Positions 31,601 to 58,937 of a stretch of DNA of 64,000 nucleotides are shown piece by piece. The translations under genes were made by a program, and so were the position numbers. Under the pieces are notes generated by a model. It ran no database searches and was not told the origin of the DNA. It was given only the letters and a program-made list of their open reading frames with translations. Positions within the stretch are counted from its first letter, which is position 1. The number at the start of each line of letters is the position of its first letter. The stretch is from Patescibacteria group bacterium (GTDB lineage Bacteria; Patescibacteriota; Minisyncoccia; Moranbacterales; GWC2-37-73), in the NCBI GenBank assembly GCA_022709545.1, contig JAKLIP010000001.1, positions 124,001 through 188,000 on the forward strand. The letters run 5' to 3'.

Positions 31601-32767
31601 ATGGATAAAAATAATAAAAAAATTGAAGCAATGACTGGTGGTGCAGCGATGGCTGAGGCTTTACGTCAAATTAATCCTGACGTAATGGCTGTTTATCCTA
31701 TTACTCCACAGACTCCGATTATAGAAACATATGCCAAAATGAAAGCTGATGGAAAAGTCAAAACAGAAATAGTTCAGGTTGAATCAGAACATAGTGCCAT
31801 GAGTGCCACAATTGGAGCCTCAGCAGCGAGTGCAAGAGCAATAACAGCAACCAGTTCGCAGGGACTTTTATATATGGCAGAAATGTTGCCGATTGCCAGT
31901 GGGCTAAGGCTTCCAATTTTAATGTGCGTTAGTTCTCGCGCTCTAAGTGCTCCGCTTAATATCCATGGTGAGCATGGTGATGTCATGGCTGTGCGCGAAG
32001 CTGGCTGGGTCCAAATTTTCTCCGAAAATGTGCAGGAGGCTTATGACAATACAATAATAGCTTTGAAGCTATCCGAATCAATTGATTTGCCTGTAATGTC
32101 GATTATGGACGGTTTCCATACTTCGCATACGACAGAAAGGCTCGAAATTTGTGACGATAAATCAATAAAAAATTTTTTGGGTGACAGAAAAGCTGAAAAA
32201 TCATTGCTTGATTTTAATAGTCCCGTGACATTCGGAGCTTTGGCTCTGCAAAACTCATATTTTGATTTCAAGCTGGACCAGGAAGAAGCAATAGAAAAAG
32301 CAAAAACGGAATATAAGAAATTGTGTGCAGAGTATATGAATATATCCGGAAGAAAACATGGGATTTTTGAAACATATAAATTAGAGGATGCAGATTATGT
32401 AATAGTTATGATGGGTGCAACCGCAGGAACCGCTAAGGATGTTATAGATAGTTTACGCAAAAAAGAAAAAAAAGTCGGACTTTTGAATATTAAACTATAC
32501 AGGCCTTTCCCATATAGGGAAATTGGACGCGAAATAGCGCATGTAAGAAAAATTGCTGTTTTAGACAGGGCTATTTCCATAGGAGCCTATCCGCCATTAT
32601 ATCAGGATATTGTAAATAGTTTGCATCACGCCGGCAGTCACAAAAATGAAATTGCCAGCTATATTTATGGTCTTGGTGGGCGTGACACATTACAAAAAGA
32701 TATTGAAAAAGTTTTTAAGGATCTAGAAGAAGGGGAAATAAGCAATAAAATAAAATATCTGAAATAA
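31601..32767 (+). CDS. porA: Pyruvate:ferredoxin oxidoreductase alpha subunit
   Basis: A 388-residue alpha subunit (domains I and II). It starts with TGGAAMAEALRQINPDVMAVYPITPQTPI, has QVESEHSAMSATIGASAASAR, ATSSQGLLYMAEML and VSSRALSAPLNIHGEHGD, and ends with the domain II region RPFPYREIGREI. It binds the substrate and part of TPP with the beta subunit. The start codon is directly adjacent to the stop of porD. Confidence 0.95.
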   Translation: MDKNNKKIEAMTGGAAMAEALRQINPDVMAVYPITPQTPIIETYAKMKADGKVKTEIVQVESEHSAMSATIGASAASARAITATSSQGLLYMAEMLPIASGLRLPILMCVSSRALSAPLNIHGEHGDVMAVREAGWVQIFSENVQEAYDNTIIALKLSESIDLPVMSIMDGFHTSHTTERLEICDDKSIKNFLGDRKAEKSLLDFNSPVTFGALALQNSYFDFKLDQEEAIEKAKTEYKKLCAEYMNISGRKHGIFETYKLEDADYVIVMMGATAGTAKDVIDSLRKKEKKVGLLNIKLYRPFPYREIGREIAHVRKIAVLDRAISIGAYPPLYQDIVNSLHHAGSHKNEIASYIYGLGGRDTLQKDIEKVFKDLEEGEISNKIKYLK

Positions 32768-32772
32768 AAAGC

Positions 32773-33681
32773 ATGAATAAAGATTTAACTAAAAAATTAG
32801 CTCCGGGTCATGCGACTTGCGCAGGATGCGGGATACCGGCTATTGTACGGACAGTACTTGGTGCAACAAATGAGCCTGTGATTGTTTCCAATGCAACAGG
32901 ATGTTTGGAAGTAACTACAACTATATATCCGAATACTTCCTGGAAAGTTCCCTATATCCATAGCGCTTTTGGCAATGCAGCGGCAACGGCATCTGGAATA
33001 GATGCTGCCCAAAAGGCATTAATGAAAAACAAGAAACTAAAAAAGCCTGCTAAAATTGTTGCCTTTGGTGGCGATGGGGGAACATATGATATCGGTCTCC
33101 AGGCTCTTTCTGGAGCGTTGGAACGTGGACACGATTTTCTGTATGTTTGTTATGACAATGAAGGATACATGAATACGGGCGGACAAAGATCTGGCGGAAC
33201 ACCTTTTGGTGCTAACACGGAAACGGAACCAGCTGGCAGTGATTCTTTCGGAAAATCAAAGCAAAGAAAAGATTTAATGGAAATTGTGAAAGCGCATAAT
33301 ATTTCTTATTTGGCACAGGCTAATGTTGCATATCTTTCTGATCTAAAAAAGAAAGCCAAAAAAGCCTTAAAAACTCCGGGACCATCATTTTTGTTAGTGC
33401 TTCAGCCATGCACGAATCTTTGGAAATTCCCAACGTCTCAGTATGTCAATATTGGAAAATTAGCCACTGAAACAAATTTCTGGCCACTTTATGAAATAGA
33501 AAATGGAAATTACGTAATTAATTACACACCTAAAAATCCAAAGCCAGTCGAAGAATTTTTAAAAACCCAAGGACGTTTTAAACATCTATTTGTTCCAAAA
33601 AATAAATCAGTAATTGCAGATATTCAAAAGACGGTTAATGAAAATTTTAAAACACTTGTAAAAAAGGCTCAGATAAGCTAA
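32773..33681 (+). CDS. porB: Pyruvate:ferredoxin oxidoreductase beta subunit (TPP and FeS binding)
   Basis: A 302-residue beta subunit. The cluster cysteines are visible in HATCAGCGIPAIV, in ATGCLEV and in LQPCTNLW. The TPP motif runs from FGGDGGTYDIGLQ to CYDNEGYMNTGGQRS. It completes the four-subunit enzyme. A tRNA gene follows 12 bp later. Confidence 0.95.
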   Translation: MNKDLTKKLAPGHATCAGCGIPAIVRTVLGATNEPVIVSNATGCLEVTTTIYPNTSWKVPYIHSAFGNAAATASGIDAAQKALMKNKKLKKPAKIVAFGGDGGTYDIGLQALSGALERGHDFLYVCYDNEGYMNTGGQRSGGTPFGANTETEPAGSDSFGKSKQRKDLMEIVKAHNISYLAQANVAYLSDLKKKAKKALKTPGPSFLLVLQPCTNLWKFPTSQYVNIGKLATETNFWPLYEIENGNYVINYTPKNPKPVEEFLKTQGRFKHLFVPKNKSVIADIQKTVNENFKTLVKKAQIS

Positions 33682-35768: not shown

Positions 35769-36497
35769 ATGATCAGGTTCGATAATGTTTCTAAAATATA
35801 CCCAGGTGATTTTGTAGCCCTAGAGAACGTTAATCTTTTTATAAAAAAAGGAGAATTCGTTTCTATTATTGGACATAGCGGATCAGGTAAATCAACTTTG
35901 CTTAAGTTGATATATGCAGAAGAACAGCCAACAGGAGGACGTGTATATTTTAATGATCGTCCTTTAGATGAAATAAACAAGAAACTTCTTCCATTTTATC
36001 GCCGTAATATAGGCACAGTCTTCCAAGATTCTAAACTGCTTCCTAAAAAAACAGTTTATGAAAATGTTGCTTATGCTCTTGAAGTTTCAGATAGCTCAGA
36101 AGAAGAAATTAAAGAACTTGTTCCTCAAATCTTAGATATTGTCGGTATGGGAGATAAAATGGAAAAATATCCAAATCAGATATCAGGTGGTGAAAAACAA
36201 AAAGTTTGTATAGCCAGGGCGCTTGTGTGCAAACCTTTGGTTATAATTGCAGATGAGCCTACAGGAAATCTTGACCCTACATCAACTTGGGAAATCGTAC
36301 AATTACTTTTAAAAATAAACAGCATGGGAACTACTGTTTTATTAGCTTCACACAATAAGGGTATTGTAGATAAACTAAATCGTCGTGTGCTGGAATTAGA
36401 AAAGGGAAAACTAGTAAGAGATAATGAAAAAGGAAAATATGAGGATAACTCAAAAGAAAAAAATATTACCGAAGAAAAAAAGAAACAAGTTCTATGA
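35769..36497 (+). CDS. ftsE: Cell division ATP-binding protein FtsE
   Basis: A 242-residue ABC ATPase with Walker A GHSGSGKST, VFQDSKLLPKKTVYENVAY, signature ISGGEKQKVCIARAL and Walker [14 protein letters not shown]. Unlike most ABC proteins it has a charged Lys/Glu tail (about 215-242). FtsEX couples ATP use to wall hydrolases at the septum. The order prfB-ftsE-ftsX is common in Gram-positive and CPR genomes. Confidence 0.93.
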   Translation: MIRFDNVSKIYPGDFVALENVNLFIKKGEFVSIIGHSGSGKSTLLKLIYAEEQPTGGRVYFNDRPLDEINKKLLPFYRRNIGTVFQDSKLLPKKTVYENVAYALEVSDSSEEEIKELVPQILDIVGMGDKMEKYPNQISGGEKQKVCIARALVCKPLVIIADEPTGNLDPTSTWEIVQLLLKINSMGTTVLLASHNKGIVDKLNRRVLELEKGKLVRDNEKGKYEDNSKEKNITEEKKKQVL

Positions 36498-36551
36498 TTT
36501 TTGCTAGATTTATAAGATTTAAAAACAAAAAATTAAAAAGAAGACAGAATT

Positions 36552-37463
36552 ATGAAATTAATAAAATTAAAACGCACATTTTTTGAAGGACTTGATAATT
36601 TTCGTCGTAACGGATGGCTAAGTTTTGCAACCGTTAGTGTTTTGGCAATATCCCTATATGTGATAAGTGTTACTTTTATTTTAGGCGTGACTACAAATAT
36701 CATTTTAAAAAACATACAGGATGATTTAAGCGTCAGTGTGTATTTCAATTCAGATATTGAGGAAAATACAATATTGGATATAAAAAATAAGCTGGTTGTA
36801 TATGATGAAATAAAATCAATAGATTATGTTACTAAGGAACAAGCATTAGAAAATTTCAAGAAAATCACAAACAATAGTGATTCCATTTCGCGTGCACTTG
36901 AGTTGATAGGAGACAATCCATTGCTATCTTCTTTAGTTATAAAAGCTAAAAACCCTGAACAGTACGGTATAATTACACAAGCAATCAGTAAGTCTAGTTT
37001 TGCAGATAGTATAAGTAATATCGACTTTGAAGAACATAAAGAAGCTGTTCAGCGGCTTAACTCAATTGTTAAACTTGTAGAAAAAATCGGCTTTACTCTC
37101 GGTTTAGTCTTTATTTTTATCGGTATAATGATAACATTTAATGCTATCAGACTTACTATGTATGCACACAAAAGTGAGTTTGAAGTTATGCGTCTTGTCG
37201 GAGCTTCAAATGTTTATATTCGTATGCCTTTTGTTTTTGAAGGTATTTTCTATGGAGTAGCATCTGCATTTTTAGTTATGATTTTTCTTGGTATAACTTC
37301 AAAATTTTTGGCGCCGATTACCCAGAACAGCATTTCTGGAGAGAACATTTTCTCGTTTTATTTAGATAATTTCTTTATTATCTTTATTTCACTTATCTTT
37401 TCAGGCATAGCTCTCGGAACCATCAGCGGACTTATTGCGATTAAAAGATATTTGAAAGTATAG
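36552..37463 (+). CDS. ftsX: Cell division permease FtsX
   Basis: A 303-residue FtsX with four membrane helices: one near residues 22-48 and three in the C-terminal half (about 180-200, 228-252, 275-297). The external domain (55-170) lies between. The typical FEVMRLVGASNVYIRMPFVFEG stretch follows helix 2. Partner of FtsE, 54 bp after it. Confidence 0.93.
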   Translation: MKLIKLKRTFFEGLDNFRRNGWLSFATVSVLAISLYVISVTFILGVTTNIILKNIQDDLSVSVYFNSDIEENTILDIKNKLVVYDEIKSIDYVTKEQALENFKKITNNSDSISRALELIGDNPLLSSLVIKAKNPEQYGIITQAISKSSFADSISNIDFEEHKEAVQRLNSIVKLVEKIGFTLGLVFIFIGIMITFNAIRLTMYAHKSEFEVMRLVGASNVYIRMPFVFEGIFYGVASAFLVMIFLGITSKFLAPITQNSISGENIFSFYLDNFFIIFISLIFSGIALGTISGLIAIKRYLKV

Positions 37464-43555: not shown

Positions 43556-46003
43556 ATGAAAAAGCCTAATTTTTTTTATTGGTATTACAGTCAAGGCGTT
43601 TGGGAGCTATTGGAAATTTGGAAAAACTTTCTGTTTTTTGTTTTTAGGAATTTCTCCATATTCCGACTTTTAAAAACGTTGGTTTATCCTTGGCATCGGG
43701 ACGTTTCTATACAAAGCTGGCGCGGATTGCATCCCTTTAGGACACTTGAGATTATAATTGAGAATATAATTTCTCGCTTCATTGGCATAATAGTCCGCTT
43801 GGTAATAATTTGTTTTGGAATAGCATTATTTATTGCAGTTATATTTTTTGGAATAGTAATTAACTTTATCTGGATCAGCGCCCCGTTATTCTTCTTGTTT
43901 TTATTTGCATTCTCAATAAAGGGACTTATTAACCCGTTTTTTTCAGGCGGTTTTGTTTTAGGTTGGATAATTTTTTCAATTTATTGCTATCTTAATGACA
44001 CAAAAATTGTAGCAACGGAAATGGGGCCTGATGAATTTTTAAAGCACAAATCATTTGAAAGGATATGCGGAAGGCTTGGCATAGTTGGCAAAAGATTTCC
44101 AAAAGAAATAATGAGTGATGAAAAATTATTGGATGATTTTCTTAGAGCCAGAGGGCTTACGCAAAAAGATTATCAATATTTAATAAGGCATGAGTTTTTA
44201 GATGAAGAGAAAAAAAACAATTCAGGAAGATTTTGGCGTTTAGAAAATTTAAAAAAAATAAGGCCAATTGGAATGCATTGGCATTATGGTTATACCGTTA
44301 ACTTAGACAAATATTGTAAGGATTTATCAGAAAGCGATTGGACTGATTACGGCAAGACAGAACTTATTGGACGGAATGAAGAATATGAAATTCTTAAAAT
44401 GATTATTCAGCGGCCGGATCAGAATTGCGTATTAATAGTCGGTAATTCTGGAGTTGGCAAGAAAACTCTCATTCATTCATTGGCACGAAATATACGAATA
44501 GATGAAGAAAAAGAAATAGAGGATATTAGGATACTTCTGCTGGATTTAGGCCGGGCTATTTCTGATGCTATAAACAAGGGAGAAGATGTAGAGAATTTTA
44601 TGCGTTTGCTTTTTCATGAAGCTAGTTATGCAGGTAATGTTGTTTTGGTTATTGAAAATATGGAAAATTTTATAGGCAAGGAAGTTAATACTTTTCATCC
44701 AGACATTTCAGCGGTTATTAGTGAGTTTCTCGAGGTTCCAACTTTTCAAATAATTGCCACATCAACCACTAAAGAATACCATCACTTAATTGAGAAACAT
44801 GATCAGATTATAAAATATTTTGAGGTTATTGAAATGCGTGAGCCATCTGAAGATGAAACAGCGGCAATTTTGCTTTTTCAAATGCAAAGATATGAAAATA
44901 AAAGGATAATATTTACCTATAAATCTATAAAGGAAATCATAACTAACAGTAGTAGATATAATTGGGAATTTCCATTGCCTGAACGTGCATTGGATTTGGC
45001 AATGAATGTTCTTATGTTTTGGGAAAAAAAGTCTGATGAACAATTTATTACTGAAAAAACAGTCAATGATTATCTGACGTTAAAAACCGGAGTGAAGCAC
45101 GGACAGGTTGAGGGCGAAGAAAGAAAAAAACTATTAAACCTTGAAGATACGCTTCATCGACAGGTTATTGGCCAAGAAGAAGCTATAAACCATGTAGCTG
45201 AAGCTTTTCGAAGATCTCGTAGTGGAATAGGAAATTCAAAAAAACCTATAGGAAGCTTTCTTTTTCTCGGACCGACTGGAGTCGGTAAAACAGAAACTGC
45301 TAAAGCTCTGGCAAAAGCTTATTTCGGGGATGAATCAAGAATAGTTCGCTTAGATATGAGCGAATTTCAAATGCCCAATTCAATCGATCGTTTATTGGGA
45401 TCGAATCAGCTTAATCAGCCGGGGAGGTTAGTTACGCAAATAAAAGACAATCCTTATTCTTTATTGCTTTTAGATGAAATAGAAAAAGCTTATCCTGAAA
45501 TTTTAGACATATTTCTTCAAATTCTTGACGAAGGATTTGTTACAGATGCCTTCGGAGAAAAAATAAATTTTACTAATACCATGATTATTGCAACATCTAA
45601 TGCGGGTGCATCATTGATTAAAAAAATGGTTGAAGAAAATATTCCAGCAGAGGAAATAAAAGAGGCAATCATAGATTACGTAATTGAGAATAACATATTT
45701 CGCACCGAATTTTTGAATCGCTTTGATGGCGTTATATTTTTCCGTCCACTCAATGGCCGGGAATTAGTAAGCGTTGTACGTCTTCAATTAGATAAATTTG
45801 CACGTCGTGTAGCTAAAGAAAAAAATATAGAAATAACTTTTAGTGAAAATGTTATTAATGACATAATCCAAAAAGGGTATAATCCAATTTTCGGAGCGCG
45901 TTCAGTAAACAGATATATTGAAGATACAGTTGAAGGAATTATTGCTAAAAAAATAATTTCCGGAGAAGCGGTTAATGGTGAAAAAGTAGAAATAAGCCTA
46001 TAG
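43556..46003 (+). CDS. Membrane-anchored Clp-type AAA+ ATPase with degenerate first ATPase domain
   Basis: An 815-residue protein. Residues 1-150 hold three or so membrane helices absent from normal ClpA/B/C. A short N-domain-like segment follows (155-260). D1 (about 280-500) has a Walker A GNSGVGKKT with the last Thr displaced, IENMEN in place of the Walker B LFIDEIH and no arginine finger (KYFEVI versus RRFQ). D2 (about 540-815) is intact: GPTGVGKTE near 571, LLLDEIEKA near 637, IATSNAGA, EFLNRFDG and GARSVNRYIED. It probably unfolds membrane or envelope proteins. Whether it meets a ClpP is not visible here. Confidence 0.88.
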   Translation: MKKPNFFYWYYSQGVWELLEIWKNFLFFVFRNFSIFRLLKTLVYPWHRDVSIQSWRGLHPFRTLEIIIENIISRFIGIIVRLVIICFGIALFIAVIFFGIVINFIWISAPLFFLFLFAFSIKGLINPFFSGGFVLGWIIFSIYCYLNDTKIVATEMGPDEFLKHKSFERICGRLGIVGKRFPKEIMSDEKLLDDFLRARGLTQKDYQYLIRHEFLDEEKKNNSGRFWRLENLKKIRPIGMHWHYGYTVNLDKYCKDLSESDWTDYGKTELIGRNEEYEILKMIIQRPDQNCVLIVGNSGVGKKTLIHSLARNIRIDEEKEIEDIRILLLDLGRAISDAINKGEDVENFMRLLFHEASYAGNVVLVIENMENFIGKEVNTFHPDISAVISEFLEVPTFQIIATSTTKEYHHLIEKHDQIIKYFEVIEMREPSEDETAAILLFQMQRYENKRIIFTYKSIKEIITNSSRYNWEFPLPERALDLAMNVLMFWEKKSDEQFITEKTVNDYLTLKTGVKHGQVEGEERKKLLNLEDTLHRQVIGQEEAINHVAEAFRRSRSGIGNSKKPIGSFLFLGPTGVGKTETAKALAKAYFGDESRIVRLDMSEFQMPNSIDRLLGSNQLNQPGRLVTQIKDNPYSLLLLDEIEKAYPEILDIFLQILDEGFVTDAFGEKINFTNTMIIATSNAGASLIKKMVEENIPAEEIKEAIIDYVIENNIFRTEFLNRFDGVIFFRPLNGRELVSVVRLQLDKFARRVAKEKNIEITFSENVINDIIQKGYNPIFGARSVNRYIEDTVEGIIAKKIISGEAVNGEKVEISL

Positions 46004-46024: not shown

Positions 46025-46711
46025 ATGAAAAAAATTGCAATATTTGATATAGATGGAACAATTTTCAGGTCTAGTCTTTTAATAGAAATAACTGAAGCAT
46101 TGATTGAGGCTGGGCTGTTTAAATCATCTGCTAAAAAATATTATTCTAAACAGCACAAAAACTGGCTTAACAGGAAAGATTCATATGAAAAATATATAGA
46201 TAGAGTGGTTAGGGCGTTTGAGCTTAACATAAAAGGAGTTAAATATAATGATTTTATAAAAATTTCTAAAAAAGTCATAGCTGCTAAAAGAAGCCAGACT
46301 TATCAATATACCAGAGATTTAATCCAAGAGCTTAAGAAAAAAGATTATTTTCTGTTGGCTATTTCTAATTCTCCTAAAATAATAGTGGATGAATTTTGTA
46401 AACGTATGGGTTTTAATAAAGCATATGGAAGGATGTATGAAGTGAACGAAAAAGGAATATTTACTGGCGCGATAATGCATAGAGAGATGATAAGCAATAA
46501 AGCTAAAGTTCTGCAAAGAGTTATAGAAAAAGAAAAATTAACTATCAAAAATTCCATAGCTGTTGGAGATACCGAGTCTGATATTCCGATGTTCAAAGTA
46601 GTCAGCAAGCCCATATGTTTTAATCCCAATAAAAAACTCTATCGTGTGGCTAAAAAGAACCAGTGGAAAGTTATTATTGAAAGAAAGGATGTGTTTTATG
46701 AAGTGATATGA
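46025..46711 (+). CDS. HAD-IB family phosphatase (SerB/PSP-like)
   Basis: A 228-residue HAD enzyme: IAIFDIDGTIFRSSL (nucleophile DIDGT near residue 8), LLAISNSPKIIVDEF as motif II, and SIAVGDTESDIPMFKVV as motif IV. Members dephosphorylate serine-P, polar lipid head groups or similar. The substrate is not determinable. Confidence 0.88.
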   Translation: MKKIAIFDIDGTIFRSSLLIEITEALIEAGLFKSSAKKYYSKQHKNWLNRKDSYEKYIDRVVRAFELNIKGVKYNDFIKISKKVIAAKRSQTYQYTRDLIQELKKKDYFLLAISNSPKIIVDEFCKRMGFNKAYGRMYEVNEKGIFTGAIMHREMISNKAKVLQRVIEKEKLTIKNSIAVGDTESDIPMFKVVSKPICFNPNKKLYRVAKKNQWKVIIERKDVFYEVI

Positions 46712-48113: not shown

Positions 48114-49036
48114 ATGGAACAAGAAAATGTATCCAATATCAATAATGAATCAGGCAAAGCGCCTAATTCAAAGAAAATTTTAATATTTATAATAATTATT
48201 TTATCTGCAGCAGTTATTATATTAGCCACTCTTTTTGTTAATAGCTTGATTAAAAATTCCCAAAAGGAAAATGAAACTGTTAAAAATAACACACCTGCAA
48301 ATGAAGAAGTTGCAAAGGAAATTACTCCAAATGTAAATCCTCCGGCTAATGGAACAGCCACGGCAGTACCTGTAGAGGTTAAAAAGGCTGATCTCTACGT
48401 GAAAAATATGTTTTTAGTGAAGAACCAAAAATGGGATCTGAATTTGTTGTTATAGTGGAAATTGCCAATAAAGGGCAAGCTGCGTCAGGAGAATTTTATT
48501 GGGAATGGTGGGCAACTGCTTCTGAACAGATATGCAAGAAGAAAGTATCAGCCATTCAGGCTGGCGGCAGCAACACTGTCCAATGCAATTATACTTATTC
48601 AAGCTGGTCAGATTATGCGACAAAAGCTATTGTTGATTCCCAGAATGATGTAGATGAAAGCGATGAAAATAATAATGTTGCCAAAAAACAAGTTGTTCCT
48701 ATTCATGGAAAAGCTGATTTGTCTGTCAGTGAATATGATTTTAATCATGACCCGGTAATGGGGGAAGAATTCAAAGTTAAAATTACCATTAAAAATAAGG
48801 GCCAAACAAACGCTGGTTCCTTTAAATGGGAATGGTGGTCAAATGCCTATTCGGCTTCTTGTGATGGCAAAATTGATGAATTGAAAGCTGGAGAAAGCAA
48901 GGATGTTTCTTGCGAGTATACTTATGGTGGATGGTCAACTTATGCGACCAAAGTTGTTGTTGATACTGATGATGATGTTAATGAAAGCAACGAGGGAAAT
49001 AATGTTTCCACTAAAACCGTAATTCCTATTCATTAA
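48114..49036 (+). pseudogene. CARDB-repeat surface protein with a frameshift at a T run
   Basis: Two overlapping frames (48114-48455 and 48431-49036) are one gene. Part one has a membrane helix (about 22-44), a Pro/Asn/Glu linker and the start of a CARDB domain (KKADLYVKNM). Part two has the rest of that domain (MGSEFVVIVEIANKGQ) and a full second copy (KADLSVSEYDFN through STKTVIPIH). Adding one T to TTTTT at 48411-48415 gives MFFSEEPKMGSEF, which aligns gap-free with the second repeat. The fault may be biological, phase-variable or a sequencing error. CARDB domains are Ig-like adhesion modules; each copy carries WEWW and paired Cys. Confidence 0.85.
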
Positions 49037-50740: not shown

Positions 50741-50832
50741 TCCCCATATTATTACAATAAAAAAATAATTGCTATAAAGGGGTAGTTATGATTTTGTGCT
50801 CCCAAAAATAAATCGGTATTTTGAATAACAAT

Positions 50833-51267
50833 ATGTTTATCGGAGAGTATCAACACAGCATAGATCCAAAAAAGCGCTTAGCGCTTCCTTCAAAATTCAG
50901 AAAAGAATTGGGAGGCAAGGTTGTAATCACTCGCGGTTTAGACAAATGCCTATTTGTGTATCCAGCTAAAGTATGGAAAGATTTAGCGGAAAAATTAGGG
51001 ACATTGCCAATGGGCGAATCAACTACCAGAAGTTTTGTGCGTTTAATGCTGGCTGGCGCAATTGAAAGTGACATAGACAGCCAAGGCAGAGTATTACTGC
51101 CGGAATATCTTAAAGAATATGCAGGGCTTGGACGCTCAGTTACGATTGCGGGACTTTTCAATAGATTGGAAATTTGGGATGAAAAGAAGTGGAAGATATA
51201 TAAAACAGGCGCCGAAAAAAATACCGATGAAATCGCAGAACAGCTTGGCAAACTGGGAATCTACTAA
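50833..51267 (+). CDS. mraZ: Transcriptional regulator MraZ
   Basis: ATG 50833 is used; the track start at 50821 is a TTG four codons earlier. The 144-residue product has two AbrB-like halves, MFIGEYQHSIDPKKRLALPSKFR and SDIDSQGRVLLPEYLKEYAG, each with the DPKxR/DSQGR turn. It binds its own promoter repeats and regulates the division cluster. First gene of mraZ-rsmH-ftsL-ftsI-murF. Confidence 0.95.
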   Translation: MFIGEYQHSIDPKKRLALPSKFRKELGGKVVITRGLDKCLFVYPAKVWKDLAEKLGTLPMGESTTRSFVRLMLAGAIESDIDSQGRVLLPEYLKEYAGLGRSVTIAGLFNRLEIWDEKKWKIYKTGAEKNTDEIAEQLGKLGIY

Positions 51268-51269
51268 AT

Positions 51270-52196
51270 ATGCCTATTCATAAGACAGTTTTATTGAAAG
51301 AAGCAATAGAAGCCCTCAATTTAAAACCAGGAATGATTGTAGTTGACGCAACATTAGGAGGAGGAGGACATAGTTTTAAAATTATTGAGAAAATAGGAGA
51401 TAGCGGAATATTGATTGCAATAGATCAGGATATCCAGGCGATAAAAAGGTTTGCCGAAATAAAAGAATCGAAAAATATATACCTGGTAAATGACAATTTT
51501 GCGAATTTAAAAAATATTTTAGCTAATTTAAAAATAGAAAAAGTCGATGCAATTCTGGCAGATTTGGGAATTTCATCTGATCAACTGGAAGATGCGAAGC
51601 GCGGAATAAGTTTCCGAAACGATTCAGCCCTCGATATGCGTATGGATATGACTAAGGGAATTACAGCAGCCGAAATTCTGAATACTTACACAGAAAAAGA
51701 ACTGGAAAAAATACTCAAGTATTTAGCCGATGAAAAATATGCCCGTTCAATTGCCAGAAATATTGTTATTAGGCGCAGAGAAAAACCGCTAAACTGGACA
51801 TCAGAACTTGTCGAAATAATAGGGCATTCGGTTCCTGATATATATAAACGGAAGAAAATACATTATGCAACAAAAACATTTCAAGCGCTAAGGATAGAAG
51901 TGAATCGTGAGTTGGAATCTCTTGATTCGTTTCTTTCCCAGGCAATAGAAGTGCTAAAGCCACAAGGAAGGCTTGCAATAATCACCTTTCACTCTGGTGA
52001 GGATTCATTGGTAAAATATGCTTTCAGGGAAAATGCTAGGGGATGCATTTGCCCGCCGGAATTTCCGGTATGCCAATGCCATATCAATCCAATTGCCAGG
52101 TTAGTCAATCATAGGCCTATTGCACCAAGCTATAGCGAGATTAAAATCAATAATCGCGCTCGCAGTGCAAAACTAAGAGTGATAGAAAAAATTTAA
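51270..52196 (+). CDS. rsmH: 16S rRNA (cytosine-N4) methyltransferase RsmH
   Basis: A 308-residue methyltransferase: VLLKEAIEALNLKPGMIVVDATLGGGGHS at the start, AILADLGISSDQL, LDMRMD and the C-terminal FHSGEDSLVKYAFRE (equivalent of FHSLEDR). It methylates C1402 of 16S rRNA. Starts 2 bp after mraZ. Confidence 0.95.
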   Translation: MPIHKTVLLKEAIEALNLKPGMIVVDATLGGGGHSFKIIEKIGDSGILIAIDQDIQAIKRFAEIKESKNIYLVNDNFANLKNILANLKIEKVDAILADLGISSDQLEDAKRGISFRNDSALDMRMDMTKGITAAEILNTYTEKELEKILKYLADEKYARSIARNIVIRRREKPLNWTSELVEIIGHSVPDIYKRKKIHYATKTFQALRIEVNRELESLDSFLSQAIEVLKPQGRLAIITFHSGEDSLVKYAFRENARGCICPPEFPVCQCHINPIARLVNHRPIAPSYSEIKINNRARSAKLRVIEKI

Positions 52197-52228
52197 TCCA
52201 TTTATTTCTCTGGGGGGATCCATGAGAA

Positions 52229-52642
52229 ATGATCAATAGAACTGTTGTCATAAGGAAAAAACCCTTAAATTGGCAACCAAAAATAAAAAGAAAAATACAA
52301 ACAAATTGGCAGCCTATTGAGGCGCTAAAATCACACACAGCGGGATTTATAAACCCAGTGTTTATTGTTTTTGCATGTGCTGTATTTTCAGGATTATTCT
52401 ATGTTTATTCTATAAATCAGACGGCTGTCAAAGGCATTGAAATACGCAAAGTGGAAAAAGAAATTGCTGAGCAGGAGAAAATTAAAGAATCTCTAAGAAT
52501 AAAAGAGGCCGAATTGAAATCATTGTATCGTATCGAAGAAGAATCCAAGAGTGCTGGCATGATTAATGTCTCGAGTGTAAAATATCTCGAAGAAAATTCT
52601 TCAGTTGCCTATGGCAATGATTCAAAGGGCAGTAAAAATTGA
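52229..52642 (+). CDS. FtsL-like division protein
   Basis: A 137-residue bitopic protein with a basic cytoplasmic N-terminus, one helix (about 44-64) and an external coiled coil (70-110), the FtsL layout. Identity is by position and topology, since FtsL sequences vary. RBS-like GGGGGG lies upstream. The 3' part overlaps the first possible frame of ftsI. Confidence 0.7.
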   Translation: MINRTVVIRKKPLNWQPKIKRKIQTNWQPIEALKSHTAGFINPVFIVFACAVFSGLFYVYSINQTAVKGIEIRKVEKEIAEQEKIKESLRIKEAELKSLYRIEEESKSAGMINVSSVKYLEENSSVAYGNDSKGSKN

Positions 52643-52667
52643 GAAGCTTAGATTATTTTTGGACTCG

Positions 52668-54566
52668 ATGGCTATGAATAAGACAAAAACAATAAAACAA
52701 AAAATGCCGTATGCTGATTGTGGAGAAAATAATTGGAGAATATATTGTTTAATTTTTTTTATCTTTTTTACAGCTTTTTGCATTTTAGCAAAATTGTTTG
52801 TTCTTCAGGTGAATAGGCATTCTACCTATTTAGAATTGGCTGAAAACCAGCATAAAAGTACTACTAAACTTTTAGCTAAGCGCGGAGAGGTTTTTTTACA
52901 AGATGAGAATCAGCTTTATCCAATAGCTGTAAATCAAGAGCTTCAAATGGCTTATGCAGTTCCTAAAGAAATTGAAAATGTGAATGAAGCAAGTGAAAAA
53001 TTATCTGATATTTTAGGATTAGATAAAGATTTTATAAAAGATAAATTAAGCAGTGATCCTAATGATATGTTTGAAATACTCAAACATAAACTTTCTGATG
53101 ATGAAGTTAGAAAAATACAAGAGGCGAAGATAGCCGGGGTATATTTTTTGGGAGAGAGCTTTAGATATTATCCGGCTAAAGAACTGGCTGCCCAAGTTAT
53201 TGGGTTTGTCGGATCAGATGGTGAACAGCAACGCGGAATGTATGGGCTTGAAGCTTATTGGGAAAAGAAACTTTGCGGAGAGTCAGGCTCACTTTCGCAG
53301 GAAAGCGATTCACGTGGAAGGTGGATACCTATGAGTGAACGAAAACTGCAGGAGAAAAAAGATGGTCCTGATCTTATTTTAACCATAAATCATACCGTTC
53401 AATTTGAAGTGGAAAAAATATTAAAGGAAGCAGTTGAAGGTTTTAGGGCAGATAGCGGGACTATTATAGTTATGGATCCTAAAACTGGAAAGATATTGGC
53501 TATGGCAAACCAACCAAGTTTTAATCCCAATGAATTCTCAAAGACAGAAGATATTTCCAGATTCGTCAACTCTGCTGTCAGTCAACCATATGAATCAGGC
53601 TCAGTTTTCAAAGCCTTTACTGTAGCAACAGGAATAGATAGCGGAAAAATTAATCCAGATACTACTTATACAGATACAGGAGTTGTTAAAGAAGCAGGGT
53701 ATAGTATACATAATTCTGACATGAAAGCTAATGGAGTGCAGACAATGACTCAAGTTTTAGAAAAATCACTGAATACAGGAGTAATATATATTGAAAAATT
53801 AGTTGGCAATAAGAAATTTGCTGATTATATACAAAGGTTTGGATTTGGGGAAAAAAGTGGCATAGAATTGCCTGGAGAAGTTCCTGGAAATATAAAAAAT
53901 CTAAATAATCCAAAAATAACCATTAACTTTTTTACTGCATCTTTCGGGCAGGGTATTTCTGTAACTCCTTTGCAACTAATTTCCGGGTACGCCGTATTTG
54001 CCAATAAGGGTGTTCTAATGAAACCGCAGATTGTTGATAGGTTACGCTATAGCGACGGGCATGAAGAAGAAATTAAGCCTGAAGAGGTAAGGCAAGTTAT
54101 TTCAGAAAGTACGGCTGAGCAGATATCAAAAATGCTCAGAAGCGTTGTGGTTGAAGGCCACGGAAAACGTGCCGATGTTCCAGGTTATCTTGTGGGAGGG
54201 AAGACGGGAACAGCCCAGATTGCAAAATCTGGTTCAAAAGGATATGAAGAAGGTATGAACATAGGTTCTTTTGCTGGATATGCACCTATAGATGATCCTA
54301 AATTTGTTGTTTTAGTAAAAATTGTAAATCCCAGAGATGTACAATGGGCAGAATCTTCAGCTGCACCAGCATTTGGACAGGTTATGAAGTTTTTGCTTAA
54401 ATATTACAAAGTATCGCCTACAGAAAATCCAGAATCAAGTCCACTAGCAAAAATGGCGCCAATACAATGGCCACCAAATCAGGTAGTTTCACAGCCAGTA
54501 AACCAGGCAACTGAAAAAAATGACAAGAAAGAATCAAGAGAAAAAGTTATTACATCAAGCGATTAA
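52668..54566 (+). CDS. ftsI: Penicillin-binding protein 3 / FtsI transpeptidase
   Basis: The frame opens at a TTG (52605), but ATG 52668 lies after the FtsL stop and is a better start (632 residues). N-terminal membrane helix (about 25-45), dimerisation (PBP_dimer) domain (65-240) and transpeptidase (260-590). Active-site motifs: SGSVFK (Ser near 310), SLN and GGKTGTAQ near 508. Cross-links septal peptidoglycan. The C-terminal tail is Gln/Pro-rich. Confidence 0.95.
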   Translation: MAMNKTKTIKQKMPYADCGENNWRIYCLIFFIFFTAFCILAKLFVLQVNRHSTYLELAENQHKSTTKLLAKRGEVFLQDENQLYPIAVNQELQMAYAVPKEIENVNEASEKLSDILGLDKDFIKDKLSSDPNDMFEILKHKLSDDEVRKIQEAKIAGVYFLGESFRYYPAKELAAQVIGFVGSDGEQQRGMYGLEAYWEKKLCGESGSLSQESDSRGRWIPMSERKLQEKKDGPDLILTINHTVQFEVEKILKEAVEGFRADSGTIIVMDPKTGKILAMANQPSFNPNEFSKTEDISRFVNSAVSQPYESGSVFKAFTVATGIDSGKINPDTTYTDTGVVKEAGYSIHNSDMKANGVQTMTQVLEKSLNTGVIYIEKLVGNKKFADYIQRFGFGEKSGIELPGEVPGNIKNLNNPKITINFFTASFGQGISVTPLQLISGYAVFANKGVLMKPQIVDRLRYSDGHEEEIKPEEVRQVISESTAEQISKMLRSVVVEGHGKRADVPGYLVGGKTGTAQIAKSGSKGYEEGMNIGSFAGYAPIDDPKFVVLVKIVNPRDVQWAESSAAPAFGQVMKFLLKYYKVSPTENPESSPLAKMAPIQWPPNQVVSQPVNQATEKNDKKESREKVITSSD

Positions 54567-54574
54567 ATTTTATT

Positions 54575-55870
54575 ATGAAGTCAAAGAAGCTAATATTTTT
54601 AGAAAAAATACTGCGTCTCATGGCTATTGCCGTTCTTAAGCGTCATAAGCCTAAAATTGTGGCTATTACTGGATCAGTTGGAAAAACTTCTTCTAGAGAA
54701 GCTATTTTTACGGTGCTTTCCTATAGATATAATGTACGTGAAAATCAGAAAAATTATAATAATGAAATTGGAATTCCATTAACAATTATTGGAGCCGAAA
54801 GCGGCAATAAAAATATTTTCAAATGGATATGGGTATTTTTTAAATGGATTTTCATATTGGTGTTTCCATTTTATCCGGAAATTTTAGTGTTTGAACTCGG
54901 AGTCGATCGCCCAGATGACATGAAATATTTCATGTCATTCATACATCCTATGGTAGGAGTTGTTACAAACGTTTCTTTGAGCCATATTGAGTTTTTTAAT
55001 ACAGTTGAAAACATTGCTAAAGAAAAAAGAATACTTATTGAATCATTAAACCCTGATGGATATGCAATTTTAAATACCGATGAAGAACTTGTTATGGAAA
55101 TGGCCAATCGAACCAAGGCACATGTTCTAACGTATGGTTTAAATGAAAACGCCACTGTCAATGGATCTAATCTGATTTATAATTATGAAAACGAGAGTCC
55201 TGAAGGCATAAGCTTCAAGCTCAATTATGACGGTAAAAACATTCCTATCCGCCTTAAAAATCTTTTAGCATCACATTATGTATATCCGGCTTTAGCAGCA
55301 GTGAGTGTCGGAATAATATTTAAAATGAATTTAGTTGATATTGCACAGGCTATAGAATCTTTTCGTGCTCCTTTAGGTAGGCTCAATCTTCTTCCAGGCA
55401 TAAAAGGCAGCTACATAATTGATGATACGTATAACGCTTCACCCATTTCTACAATTGCGGCGCTGGGAGTTCTTGGCCAGCTTAGAGCCAAAAGAAAAAT
55501 AGCTGTTCTTGGGGATATGTTAGAACTTGGTGATCAAACAGAATCAGGCCATAAGGAAGTTGGCAAAAAAATATTTTCAGAAAACATAGATGCTTTTATA
55601 GCTGTTGGTAATAGAATGCAGCACACAGTCGGCCAATTGATTACGCTAGGATTTCCTGAGCAAAATATTTTGCGGTTTGATGATCCGGAAAAAGCTGCCG
55701 AAAAAATATCCCAGTTTATAAAAGAAGGAGACTTTGTCCTAGTTAAAGGTTCGCAAGGGATGAGGATGGAGAAAATAGTTGAAAAGATAATAGCTGATCC
55801 TACTCAAGCCAAAAAACTTCTTTGTAGACAGAACAAGGAATGGAAAAAGAAACCATTTGTAAGGCTGTAG
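54575..55870 (+). CDS. murF: UDP-N-acetylmuramoyl-tripeptide--D-Ala-D-Ala ligase
   Basis: A 431-residue Mur ligase. ATP loop ITGSVGKTSSREA near residue 31, ENQKNYNNEIGIPLTII, VFELGVDRPDDM, and the C-terminal DDTYNASPIS and VLGDMLELGDQTESGHKEVG. An unusual hydrophobic insert (about 77-100, IFKWIWVFFKWIFILVFPF) looks like a membrane-association segment. Adds D-Ala-D-Ala to the stem peptide. Last gene of the division cluster. Confidence 0.93.
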   Translation: MKSKKLIFLEKILRLMAIAVLKRHKPKIVAITGSVGKTSSREAIFTVLSYRYNVRENQKNYNNEIGIPLTIIGAESGNKNIFKWIWVFFKWIFILVFPFYPEILVFELGVDRPDDMKYFMSFIHPMVGVVTNVSLSHIEFFNTVENIAKEKRILIESLNPDGYAILNTDEELVMEMANRTKAHVLTYGLNENATVNGSNLIYNYENESPEGISFKLNYDGKNIPIRLKNLLASHYVYPALAAVSVGIIFKMNLVDIAQAIESFRAPLGRLNLLPGIKGSYIIDDTYNASPISTIAALGVLGQLRAKRKIAVLGDMLELGDQTESGHKEVGKKIFSENIDAFIAVGNRMQHTVGQLITLGFPEQNILRFDDPEKAAEKISQFIKEGDFVLVKGSQGMRMEKIVEKIIADPTQAKKLLCRQNKEWKKKPFVRL

Positions 55871-57344: not shown

Positions 57345-58937
57345 ATGGAAATTTTATCAAGTATTGTAAGTAAGGCGTTTGTTCCGGGCATGATTTTGTT
57401 GGTTGTTGTGGGTATCATACTTGCTCTTAAGTACATCGCAAGCAGATACAAAAAAATTCCGCCAAATGCAGTCGGTGTTTTTTATGGAAGACAATATACA
57501 TATACCGGTCCCGCTCCTGAAAACAAAAAATATTCACTCGGATTTAAGGTAGTATGTGGCGGCGGCAAGGTACAAATCCCATTCGTAGAAAATTACCAGG
57601 AAATGTCGACATCCGCCTTTCAGGTGGAAATAAACGAATCATCTATTCCCAATAAAGATAACGTAAAAGTTGAAGTCAGAGGTGTGGCAACCTGCAAGTT
57701 ATCGACTGAGTTCGAAGACTTGGTCAATGCTGCACAAGCATTTCTGGGAAAATCTGAAGAAGAAATCAACAAATTTATCCAAAACATCCTGAAAGGTCAT
57801 TTGCGGTCAATTATCGGTAAACTGGATATCCAGGAATTACTGAGACGGCGTGACGAATTCAATAAGAAAGTTCTGGAAGAATCCGGCGCCGAATTAAAGC
57901 TTCTTGGCGTGCGCATCATCACTTTGGTTATCCAGGATATCAATGACCAGTACGGATACATTGATTCGCTGGGCAAACAGACAGTGGCCGAAGCTAAACG
58001 TGATGCAGACATTAAAGTTGCTGAGGCGCAAAGAGAATCAACAATTAAAGTCTCTGATGCCGAACGTGATGCGTCGATAGTTACTGCTGAAAATGCAGCC
58101 AAGGTCGCGGAAGCAAATAAGAACCGCGATGTAAAAATTGCCGATATGAAAGTCATTACTGAAACTGCAAATGCCAAAGCAGAGATGGCAAAAAATATTG
58201 AATTGGCTGATCAGTCAAAAGTTCTCAAAGTCAAGGAAGCTGAACGTGATGCGGCAGAAAAAGAAGCCCAGACGCATGTGCAGGAAAAAGAAGTTATAAG
58301 GGTAGGGAAAGAACTCGAAGCCACCGTTGTTATGCCGGCCGAAGCAGCCAAGAAGAAAAAACTTATTGACGCTGATGCAAATAAGCAAGCCACAATTACG
58401 GAAGCGGAAGGCGAGTCCAAAAAAGTTCAAATCAAAGCTGAAGCTGATAAGGTTTCACAAACAATGGAAGGCGAAGGTGAAGCCAATAAGATCAGAGCTA
58501 CTTTGATGGCATCGGCGGAAGGCGAAGCGGCCAAGGTGGAAAAGAAACTTACCGCTGAAGCTACTGGTACCAAGGCCATGGCTGAAGCATTGGCTCAAAT
58601 GAATGATGCCTCGCGTCTGATTATTATCCTCGACCGCTTGCCGGCCCTGGTAGACAAAGGTGGAGAAGCACTGGCCAAAGTCGGAGAATCGATTTTCAAG
58701 AGCGTGGCCTTACCTTTTGGCAGCATCGACAACATCAAAATCGTTGATATGGGCGGAAAAGGTGAAGGTCTTCAGACCATGGGAAGCATAGTTCCTCAGA
58801 CAGTAGCCAATGTTGTCAGAATTTTGAAAACCCAAGGTATTGACCTGGAAGATCTGTTCAAAAAAGCCGGCGTAAACATTGGTGAAGCATTATCAATGGT
58901 TGCCGACAAAAATGCAGGATCTGAAGAAAAAAAGTGA
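57345..58937 (+). CDS. Flotillin-like SPFH domain protein
   Basis: A 530-residue protein with an N-terminal hairpin/membrane segment (about 10-30), SPFH/band-7 domain (about 40-220) and the long Ala/Glu repeat region (220-430) rich in VAEAQRESTIKVSDAERDA-type helices that form the flotillin coiled coil. The C-terminus (440-530) is the oligomerisation part. Flotillins organise membrane microdomains. In an operon with the NfeD-like gene 52 bp upstream, as yuaF-floT in Bacillus. The codon use is richer in G+C than upstream genes. Confidence 0.92.
   Translation: MEILSSIVSKAFVPGMILLVVVGIILALKYIASRYKKIPPNAVGVFYGRQYTYTGPAPENKKYSLGFKVVCGGGKVQIPFVENYQEMSTSAFQVEINESSIPNKDNVKVEVRGVATCKLSTEFEDLVNAAQAFLGKSEEEINKFIQNILKGHLRSIIGKLDIQELLRRRDEFNKKVLEESGAELKLLGVRIITLVIQDINDQYGYIDSLGKQTVAEAKRDADIKVAEAQRESTIKVSDAERDASIVTAENAAKVAEANKNRDVKIADMKVITETANAKAEMAKNIELADQSKVLKVKEAERDAAEKEAQTHVQEKEVIRVGKELEATVVMPAEAAKKKKLIDADANKQATITEAEGESKKVQIKAEADKVSQTMEGEGEANKIRATLMASAEGEAAKVEKKLTAEATGTKAMAEALAQMNDASRLIIILDRLPALVDKGGEALAKVGESIFKSVALPFGSIDNIKIVDMGGKGEGLQTMGSIVPQTVANVVRILKTQGIDLEDLFKKAGVNIGEALSMVADKNAGSEEKK

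Follow-up and report, generated by a model that had tools for sequence, protein, structure and literature searches.

The window, a stretch of 64,000 nucleotides of Ca. Moranbacteria DNA, encodes a membrane-anchored Clp/Hsp100-like ATPase of 815 residues. The gene is a single ORF on the plus strand (43556–46003), with an ATG at 43556 and a stop codon ending at 46003; the protein features described below are given on the same strand. Sequence comparison indicates a family in which each subunit contains one complete ATP site, located in the second AAA+ ring (D2), and a degenerate first ring (D1) in which the Walker A lysine is usually retained. The ATPase is accompanied by a membrane protein of about 125 residues, encoded upstream or fused to it, and in several lineages this pair shows linkage to dcw genes. 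The best explanation, held with about even confidence, is that the family constitutes a CPR-specific membrane ATPase derived from Hsp100, which would remodel envelope or division complexes in a torsin-like manner without threading polypeptides. As part of this explanation, and graded with it, the family would not be a protein-degrading or threading unfoldase.

Fold and active sites of the ATPase

The C-terminal two thirds of the window protein correspond to a Clp/Hsp100 double AAA+ ring protein. Two AAA+ modules are followed by a ClpB_D2-small domain, as tested for Clp/Hsp100 double-ring homology; Pfam places AAA_2 at residues 563–724 and ClpB_D2-small at residues 732–813, and phmmer aligns the protein with ClpB in two stretches. 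The AlphaFold2 model has a mean pLDDT of 88.7 and a pTM of 0.83. Its top structural matches are ClpB and ClpC over residues 247–815; the match to ClpB (4ciu) has a Z score of 35.9 and an rmsd of 4.7 over 530 aligned residues (residues 248–815). The protein scores far below the NCBIfam equivalog cut-offs (403 versus 1232 bits for ClpB and 362 versus 993 bits for ClpA), and no protease domain was found in it by Pfam. The source genome also encodes clpP and a canonical ClpB, the latter passing the NCBIfam ClpB cut-off at 1238.7 bits. The estimated contamination of this genome is 9.59%, and the ATPase family is also found in cleaner relatives.

A helical domain lies between the membrane segments and D1 in the AlphaFold2 model (residues 158–250; 44027–44305). 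The window protein gives no Clp_N match of its own, but a Kerfeldbacteria relative (L141) matches Clp_N with E = 1.1e-5, and on that basis the domain would be Clp_N-like.

Motifs were compared over 149 family rows, comprising 125 unique homologs and 24 added later. The 125 were drawn from 30 ortholog loci, loci of the profile search at E ≤ 1e-130 and 80 named loci. The reference set was nine canonical Clp proteins, of which CPR genomes supplied at least four.

The catalytic apparatus of D2 is preserved. The window protein retains Walker A (GPTGVGKT, 45269–45292), Walker B (LLLLDE, 45461–45478), the arginine finger R722 in NRF (45719–45721) and the sensor 2 arginine R782 in GAR (45899–45901). 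These four elements, together with the sensor 1 asparagine, are found in all 149 family rows, and D2 catalysis is likewise kept in all nine canonical proteins. The original prediction of an intact D2 holds for these catalytic residues, but not for the pore loop.

Clp/Hsp100 machines grip and thread polypeptides with their pore-loop motifs, and the aromatic pore loops define their working mode. At the D2 pore-loop position (LLGSNQLNQPG, 45392–45424), the four residues GYVG are deleted relative to ClpB and ClpC; in a phmmer alignment with 6oax, ClpB VGAPPGYVGYEEGG is aligned to LGSNQ----LNQPG. The KYRG motif is absent from the D1 pore-loop position (AISDAINKGEDVE, 44555–44593). Judged from the alignments, loss of the pore-loop motifs in both rings is a near-universal family trait, because a GYVG-like D2 loop (G-aromatic-[VPA]-G) is present in one of 149 family rows versus 9/9 canonical proteins, and a KYRG-type D1 motif in none of 149 versus 8/9. 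Twenty genes from among the lowest-scoring matches listed are all pore-less with an intact D2. The loops differ freely in length and sequence among lineages.

Several members depart from the common form. The single GYVG-like loop belongs to a CPR3-type protein (L119:4023–6659) with a near-canonical D2 loop, GYPGYEEG; a second CPR3-type protein (L121:7167–9806) has GQVGYEEG, and both carry the D1 "DE". The two are possibly intermediates between threading Clp proteins and the pore-less family. A minimal version of 632 residues (L154:2836–4731, genome G185) has the partner fused, lacks most of the linker domain and is wholly missing the D2 pore-loop region. At the other extreme, a member of 1226 residues (L103:2152–5829), with the partner upstream, is about 400 residues longer than the others.

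D1 of the window protein keeps Walker A (GNSGVGKKT, 44441–44467) and has lost other catalytic motifs. The Walker B position (NVVLVIEN, 44636–44659) ends in VIEN, with E367 and N368 in place of the canonical DE. At the arginine-finger position (44813–44821), KYF replaces RRF, so that residues 420–421 are KY where canonical proteins have RR. A D1 without the Walker B pair and the arginine finger is what had been predicted. Homologs with 39–71% identity to the window protein repeat this pattern, which argues that it is more than chance. Sequencing error or chance degeneration is ruled out, because many genomes, 149 rows in all, share the pattern.

Among 31 unique Moranbacteria rows, "DE" is present in one and RR in none, so D1 of these members is very probably not an ATPase. 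The motif comparison thus bears out, for Moranbacteria, the original view of an inactive D1 with a structural rather than a catalytic role, with active D1 motifs absent from close homologs. That view does not extend to the whole family. The D1 Walker A lysine is present in 112 of the 149 rows, "DE" in 28 and an arginine at position 420 or 421 in 23. The full set of Lys, DE and RR occurs in 0/149 rows versus 9/9 canonical proteins, the window protein having the lysine only. DE plus an arginine was found in none of the first 125 rows; 20 lower-scoring genes added later brought four members with Lys, DE and one Arg (4/149), and inactivity of D1 was dropped as a family-defining trait. D1 looks closer to active in these deep lineages, and from the aligned motifs its decay appears gradual and lineage-dependent.

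The membrane domain and its partner gene

Residues 1–122 of the window protein (43556–43921) form a membrane domain with the profile "FSIxxLxxTLFSPWxRD...N..SR..G..VR", which is fused here but encoded by its own gene, upstream of the ATPase, in many of the other CPR lineages. Hydropathy identifies two anchor segments, residues 84–102 and 124–142 (43805–43981), and the AlphaFold2 model contains long helices at residues 60–124 and 127–146. Both support the predicted anchoring of the Clp ATPase in the membrane. The topology is ambiguous as to the number of membrane passes. The N-terminal membrane helices had been ascribed to the ATPase itself; their presence is confirmed, but by profile comparison they belong to a fused partner domain.

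In most of the other CPR lineages, a profile of residues 1–160 matches a separate ORF of about 125 residues that immediately precedes the ATPase gene. Of 132 non-canonical ORFs, a count that includes some genes taken twice, 61 are fused to the partner, 57 have it upstream and 14 are without a profile match. Inspected by eye, ten of these carry the partner in divergent or fused form, three start at a contig edge and one (L075) has no partner. No partner profile match lies beside any of the nine canonical Clp ORFs. The partner stop codon has a possible start codon no more than 20 nt away in 50 of the 57 unfused pairs, and in several the two genes overlap by 4 nt; the start nearest the partner stop was chosen in this count, which biases it to short gaps. 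The fused and separate states require at least five changes on a FastTree tree of the AAA+ part.

The partner profile has 96 matches in 93 of 239 CPR genomes, and 83 of them lie beside or inside an ATPase match, among the matches listed. Of the other 13, seven are in genomes whose ATPase place is not among the matches listed, two are in genomes with the parts on different contigs, two look accidental, and the last two (G185 and G243) are fused or adjacent to divergent pore-less ATPases. Searches of five partner proteins gave nothing above the Pfam cut-off (best DUF4064, 19.4 of 32.1 bits), and the partner has no match in NCBIfam. A PDB fold search with residues 1–265 returned no confident match (best E 5.7).

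Genomic setting and distribution

A dcw cluster (50821–55870, plus strand) lies 4.8 kb downstream of the ATPase gene in the window. It is sequentially composed of mraZ (50821–51267), rsmH (51270–52196), a weak DivIC-like gene (52229–52642), a PBP/FtsI-type transpeptidase (52605–54566) and a murF-type Mur ligase (54575–55870). Six ORFs separate the ATPase gene from mraZ; one of them (48431–49036) encodes a protein with two CARDB repeats. A HAD-family phosphatase (46025–46711) follows the ATPase gene after a gap of 22 nt and probably shares its transcript. An ABC ATPase and an FtsX with the FtsX extracellular domain, an FtsEX-type pair, are encoded 6 kb upstream (35769–37463), making this stretch rich in division genes. 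The window also encodes an SPFH/Band 7 (flotillin-like) protein soon after the dcw genes (57345–58937) and pyruvate:ferredoxin oxidoreductase-type subunits (POR_N, TPP_enzyme_C; 31601–33681).

A dcw gene is found in the flanks of 15 of 75 analysed loci. Nealson-, Portnoy- and Staskawiczbacteria have the order partner–ATPase–mraZ–rsmH–FtsL-like–PBP, several with murF. Three further loci (L156, L157 and L128 of Uhrbacteria) have mraZ–rsmH–FtsL-like–partner–ATPase–MraY/WecA-type transferase; the FtsL-like label rests on position and appearance, Pfam giving no match for L156. At ten loci (L130 and similar ones), a recurrent protein of about 350 residues with one hydrophobic stretch is encoded upstream of the pair; by eye it looks FtsQ-like, and Pfam gives no match.

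The ATPase and mraZ are both among the matches listed in 63 genomes. They lie within 10 kb of each other in 19 of these, on the same strand in 19/19, compared with 0/70 within 10 kb for a recA control (Fisher p about 1e-7, a value that ignores relatedness among genomes that are not independent). The linkage of the pair to dcw genes is partial, because mraZ is on a different contig in 34 of the 63 genomes and more than 20 kb away in 10 of the 29 with both on the same contig. Synteny of this kind is no proof of function.

Of the 286 genomes sampled from the phylum, 170 match the full profile at E ≤ 1e-130, including 155 of 253 good genomes; this cut-off is close to the scores of canonical Clp proteins (459–485 bits), so the 170 could include some canonical proteins. 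The partner was found in none of 149 genomes from the phylum of a Clostridium locus (E ≤ 1e-4) and in none of four named-locus genomes outside CPR (E ≤ 0.01), two sets in which no positive control exists. No plasmid record covered 80% of the query, and the best plasmid matches were ClpB. In the open-access literature searched, no description of the ATPase family was found. By word search, the main text of a study of CPR protein families (PMC6744442) does not contain "Clp", and a study of dcw clusters (PMC8871954) neither includes CPR nor describes the family.

Proposed function and comparison with known systems

In the proposed mechanism, the ATPase subunits would form a ring beneath the membrane, with D1 binding nucleotide as a scaffold. 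ATP hydrolysis in D2 would drive ring movements, which D1 and the helical linker domain would relay to the membrane partner. In this way, envelope or division complexes bound to the membrane may be separated or reorganised with no threading, as proposed for torsins.

The original prediction was a membrane protein unfoldase. An unfoldase or extractor that works as FtsH or Msp1 does, with a structural D1 and a D2 that threads through unconventional pore residues, possibly to ClpP or a membrane protease, is unlikely. The double-ring Hsp100 fold of residues 247–815, the strictly conserved D2 catalysis, the membrane anchor and the clpP gene would all suit such an enzyme. Other pore residues could also still grip, since an aromatic residue occurs somewhere in the D2 loop columns in 19 of 125 family rows and L119 has GYPG. 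However, the GYVG and KYRG motifs are lost nearly throughout and the loops are free to vary among lineages, and with the motifs gone from both rings an unfoldase is not supported. ClpP and its docking loop had been named as things to look for: clpP is present in the source genome, but no [ILV]GF ClpP loop is found in residues 684–716 of the window protein, a weak test that detects the loop in only 3/9 canonical proteins, some of which are not ClpP users. The same pattern, subject to that 3/9 detection, occurs in 2 of 125 family rows, both accidental-looking.

The dcw linkage and the lost pore loops would also fit an ATP-gated divisome scaffold or switch, in which the ring binds cell-wall synthesis proteins and recruits them, and hydrolysis only resets assembly, in the manner of a clamp loader or MinD, with no mechanical remodelling. 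The predominance of the D1 lysine (112/149) over "DE" (28/149) is consistent with a structural nucleotide in such an assembly. Yet a full D2 motor with its own arginine finger in 149/149 rows suggests cooperative hydrolysis around the ring, beyond the needs of a simple switch, and we regard this alternative as quite improbable. Hardly credible, and already disfavoured, is a vestigial or decaying ClpB/ClpC paralog under weak constraint. Although the D1 motifs are eroded to different degrees among lineages, such decay is at odds with D2 motifs that are invariant over the phylum, a partner gene that is conserved and repeatedly fused, and retention of the family in many near-complete genomes.

In a wider form of the non-threading explanation, to which we give somewhat less than even confidence, a ClpB/ClpC-like ancestor would have given rise in CPR bacteria to a machine of two components, present across the phylum: a PWKRD-type membrane protein and a pore-less Hsp100 ATPase. 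It would form part of the division or cell-wall apparatus and work by torsin-like, non-threading remodelling. If true, torsins would have a bacterial parallel, and the machine would include a division-operon ATPase undescribed in the open-access literature searched. An Hsp100 motor kept while the grip is lost in both rings raises the question of what the motor does without threading, which is also asked of torsins; here the system is bacterial, has a defined partner and could be tested by expressing two proteins. The mraZ–rsmH–ftsL–ftsI linkage also points to an unassigned envelope or division component in CPR, whose cell biology is little known.

The family resembles ClpB, ClpC and ClpA in its two AAA+ modules, its AAA_2 and ClpB_D2-small domains and its D2 catalytic residues. 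It differs from them in having a membrane anchor and a dedicated partner, in lacking both pore-loop motifs and, in most members, in the loss of the D1 Walker B and arginine finger; the window protein also lacks the ClpP loop, by a motif test positive in 3/9 canonical proteins.

FtsH and Msp1 are AAA+ rings tethered to the membrane by N-terminal helices, Msp1 being a membrane-anchored extractor. The CPR family shares this architecture of an AAA+ ring with an N-terminal tether. FtsH and Msp1, however, thread their substrates and belong to a different AAA+ clade from Clp/Hsp100, whereas the window protein is without a protease domain and has lost the pore loops.

Torsins contain a single AAA+ module. 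These metazoan ER proteins are described as Clp-related membrane ATPases that lack aromatic pore loops and are thought not to thread; they are ER-lumenal, confined to multicellular eukaryotes and supplied with an arginine finger by LAP1 or LULL1 (PMC6646356, PMC5425593). The CPR family is similar in being a Clp-related AAA+ protein at the membrane with no aromatic pore-loop motif. In contrast to torsins, it is bacterial, has two AAA+ modules and carries its own D2 arginine finger (R722, in 149/149 rows), where torsins lack one and obtain it from a degenerate AAA+ cofactor. By analogy, torsin appears to be the nearest functional counterpart of the CPR family, which is not itself a torsin.
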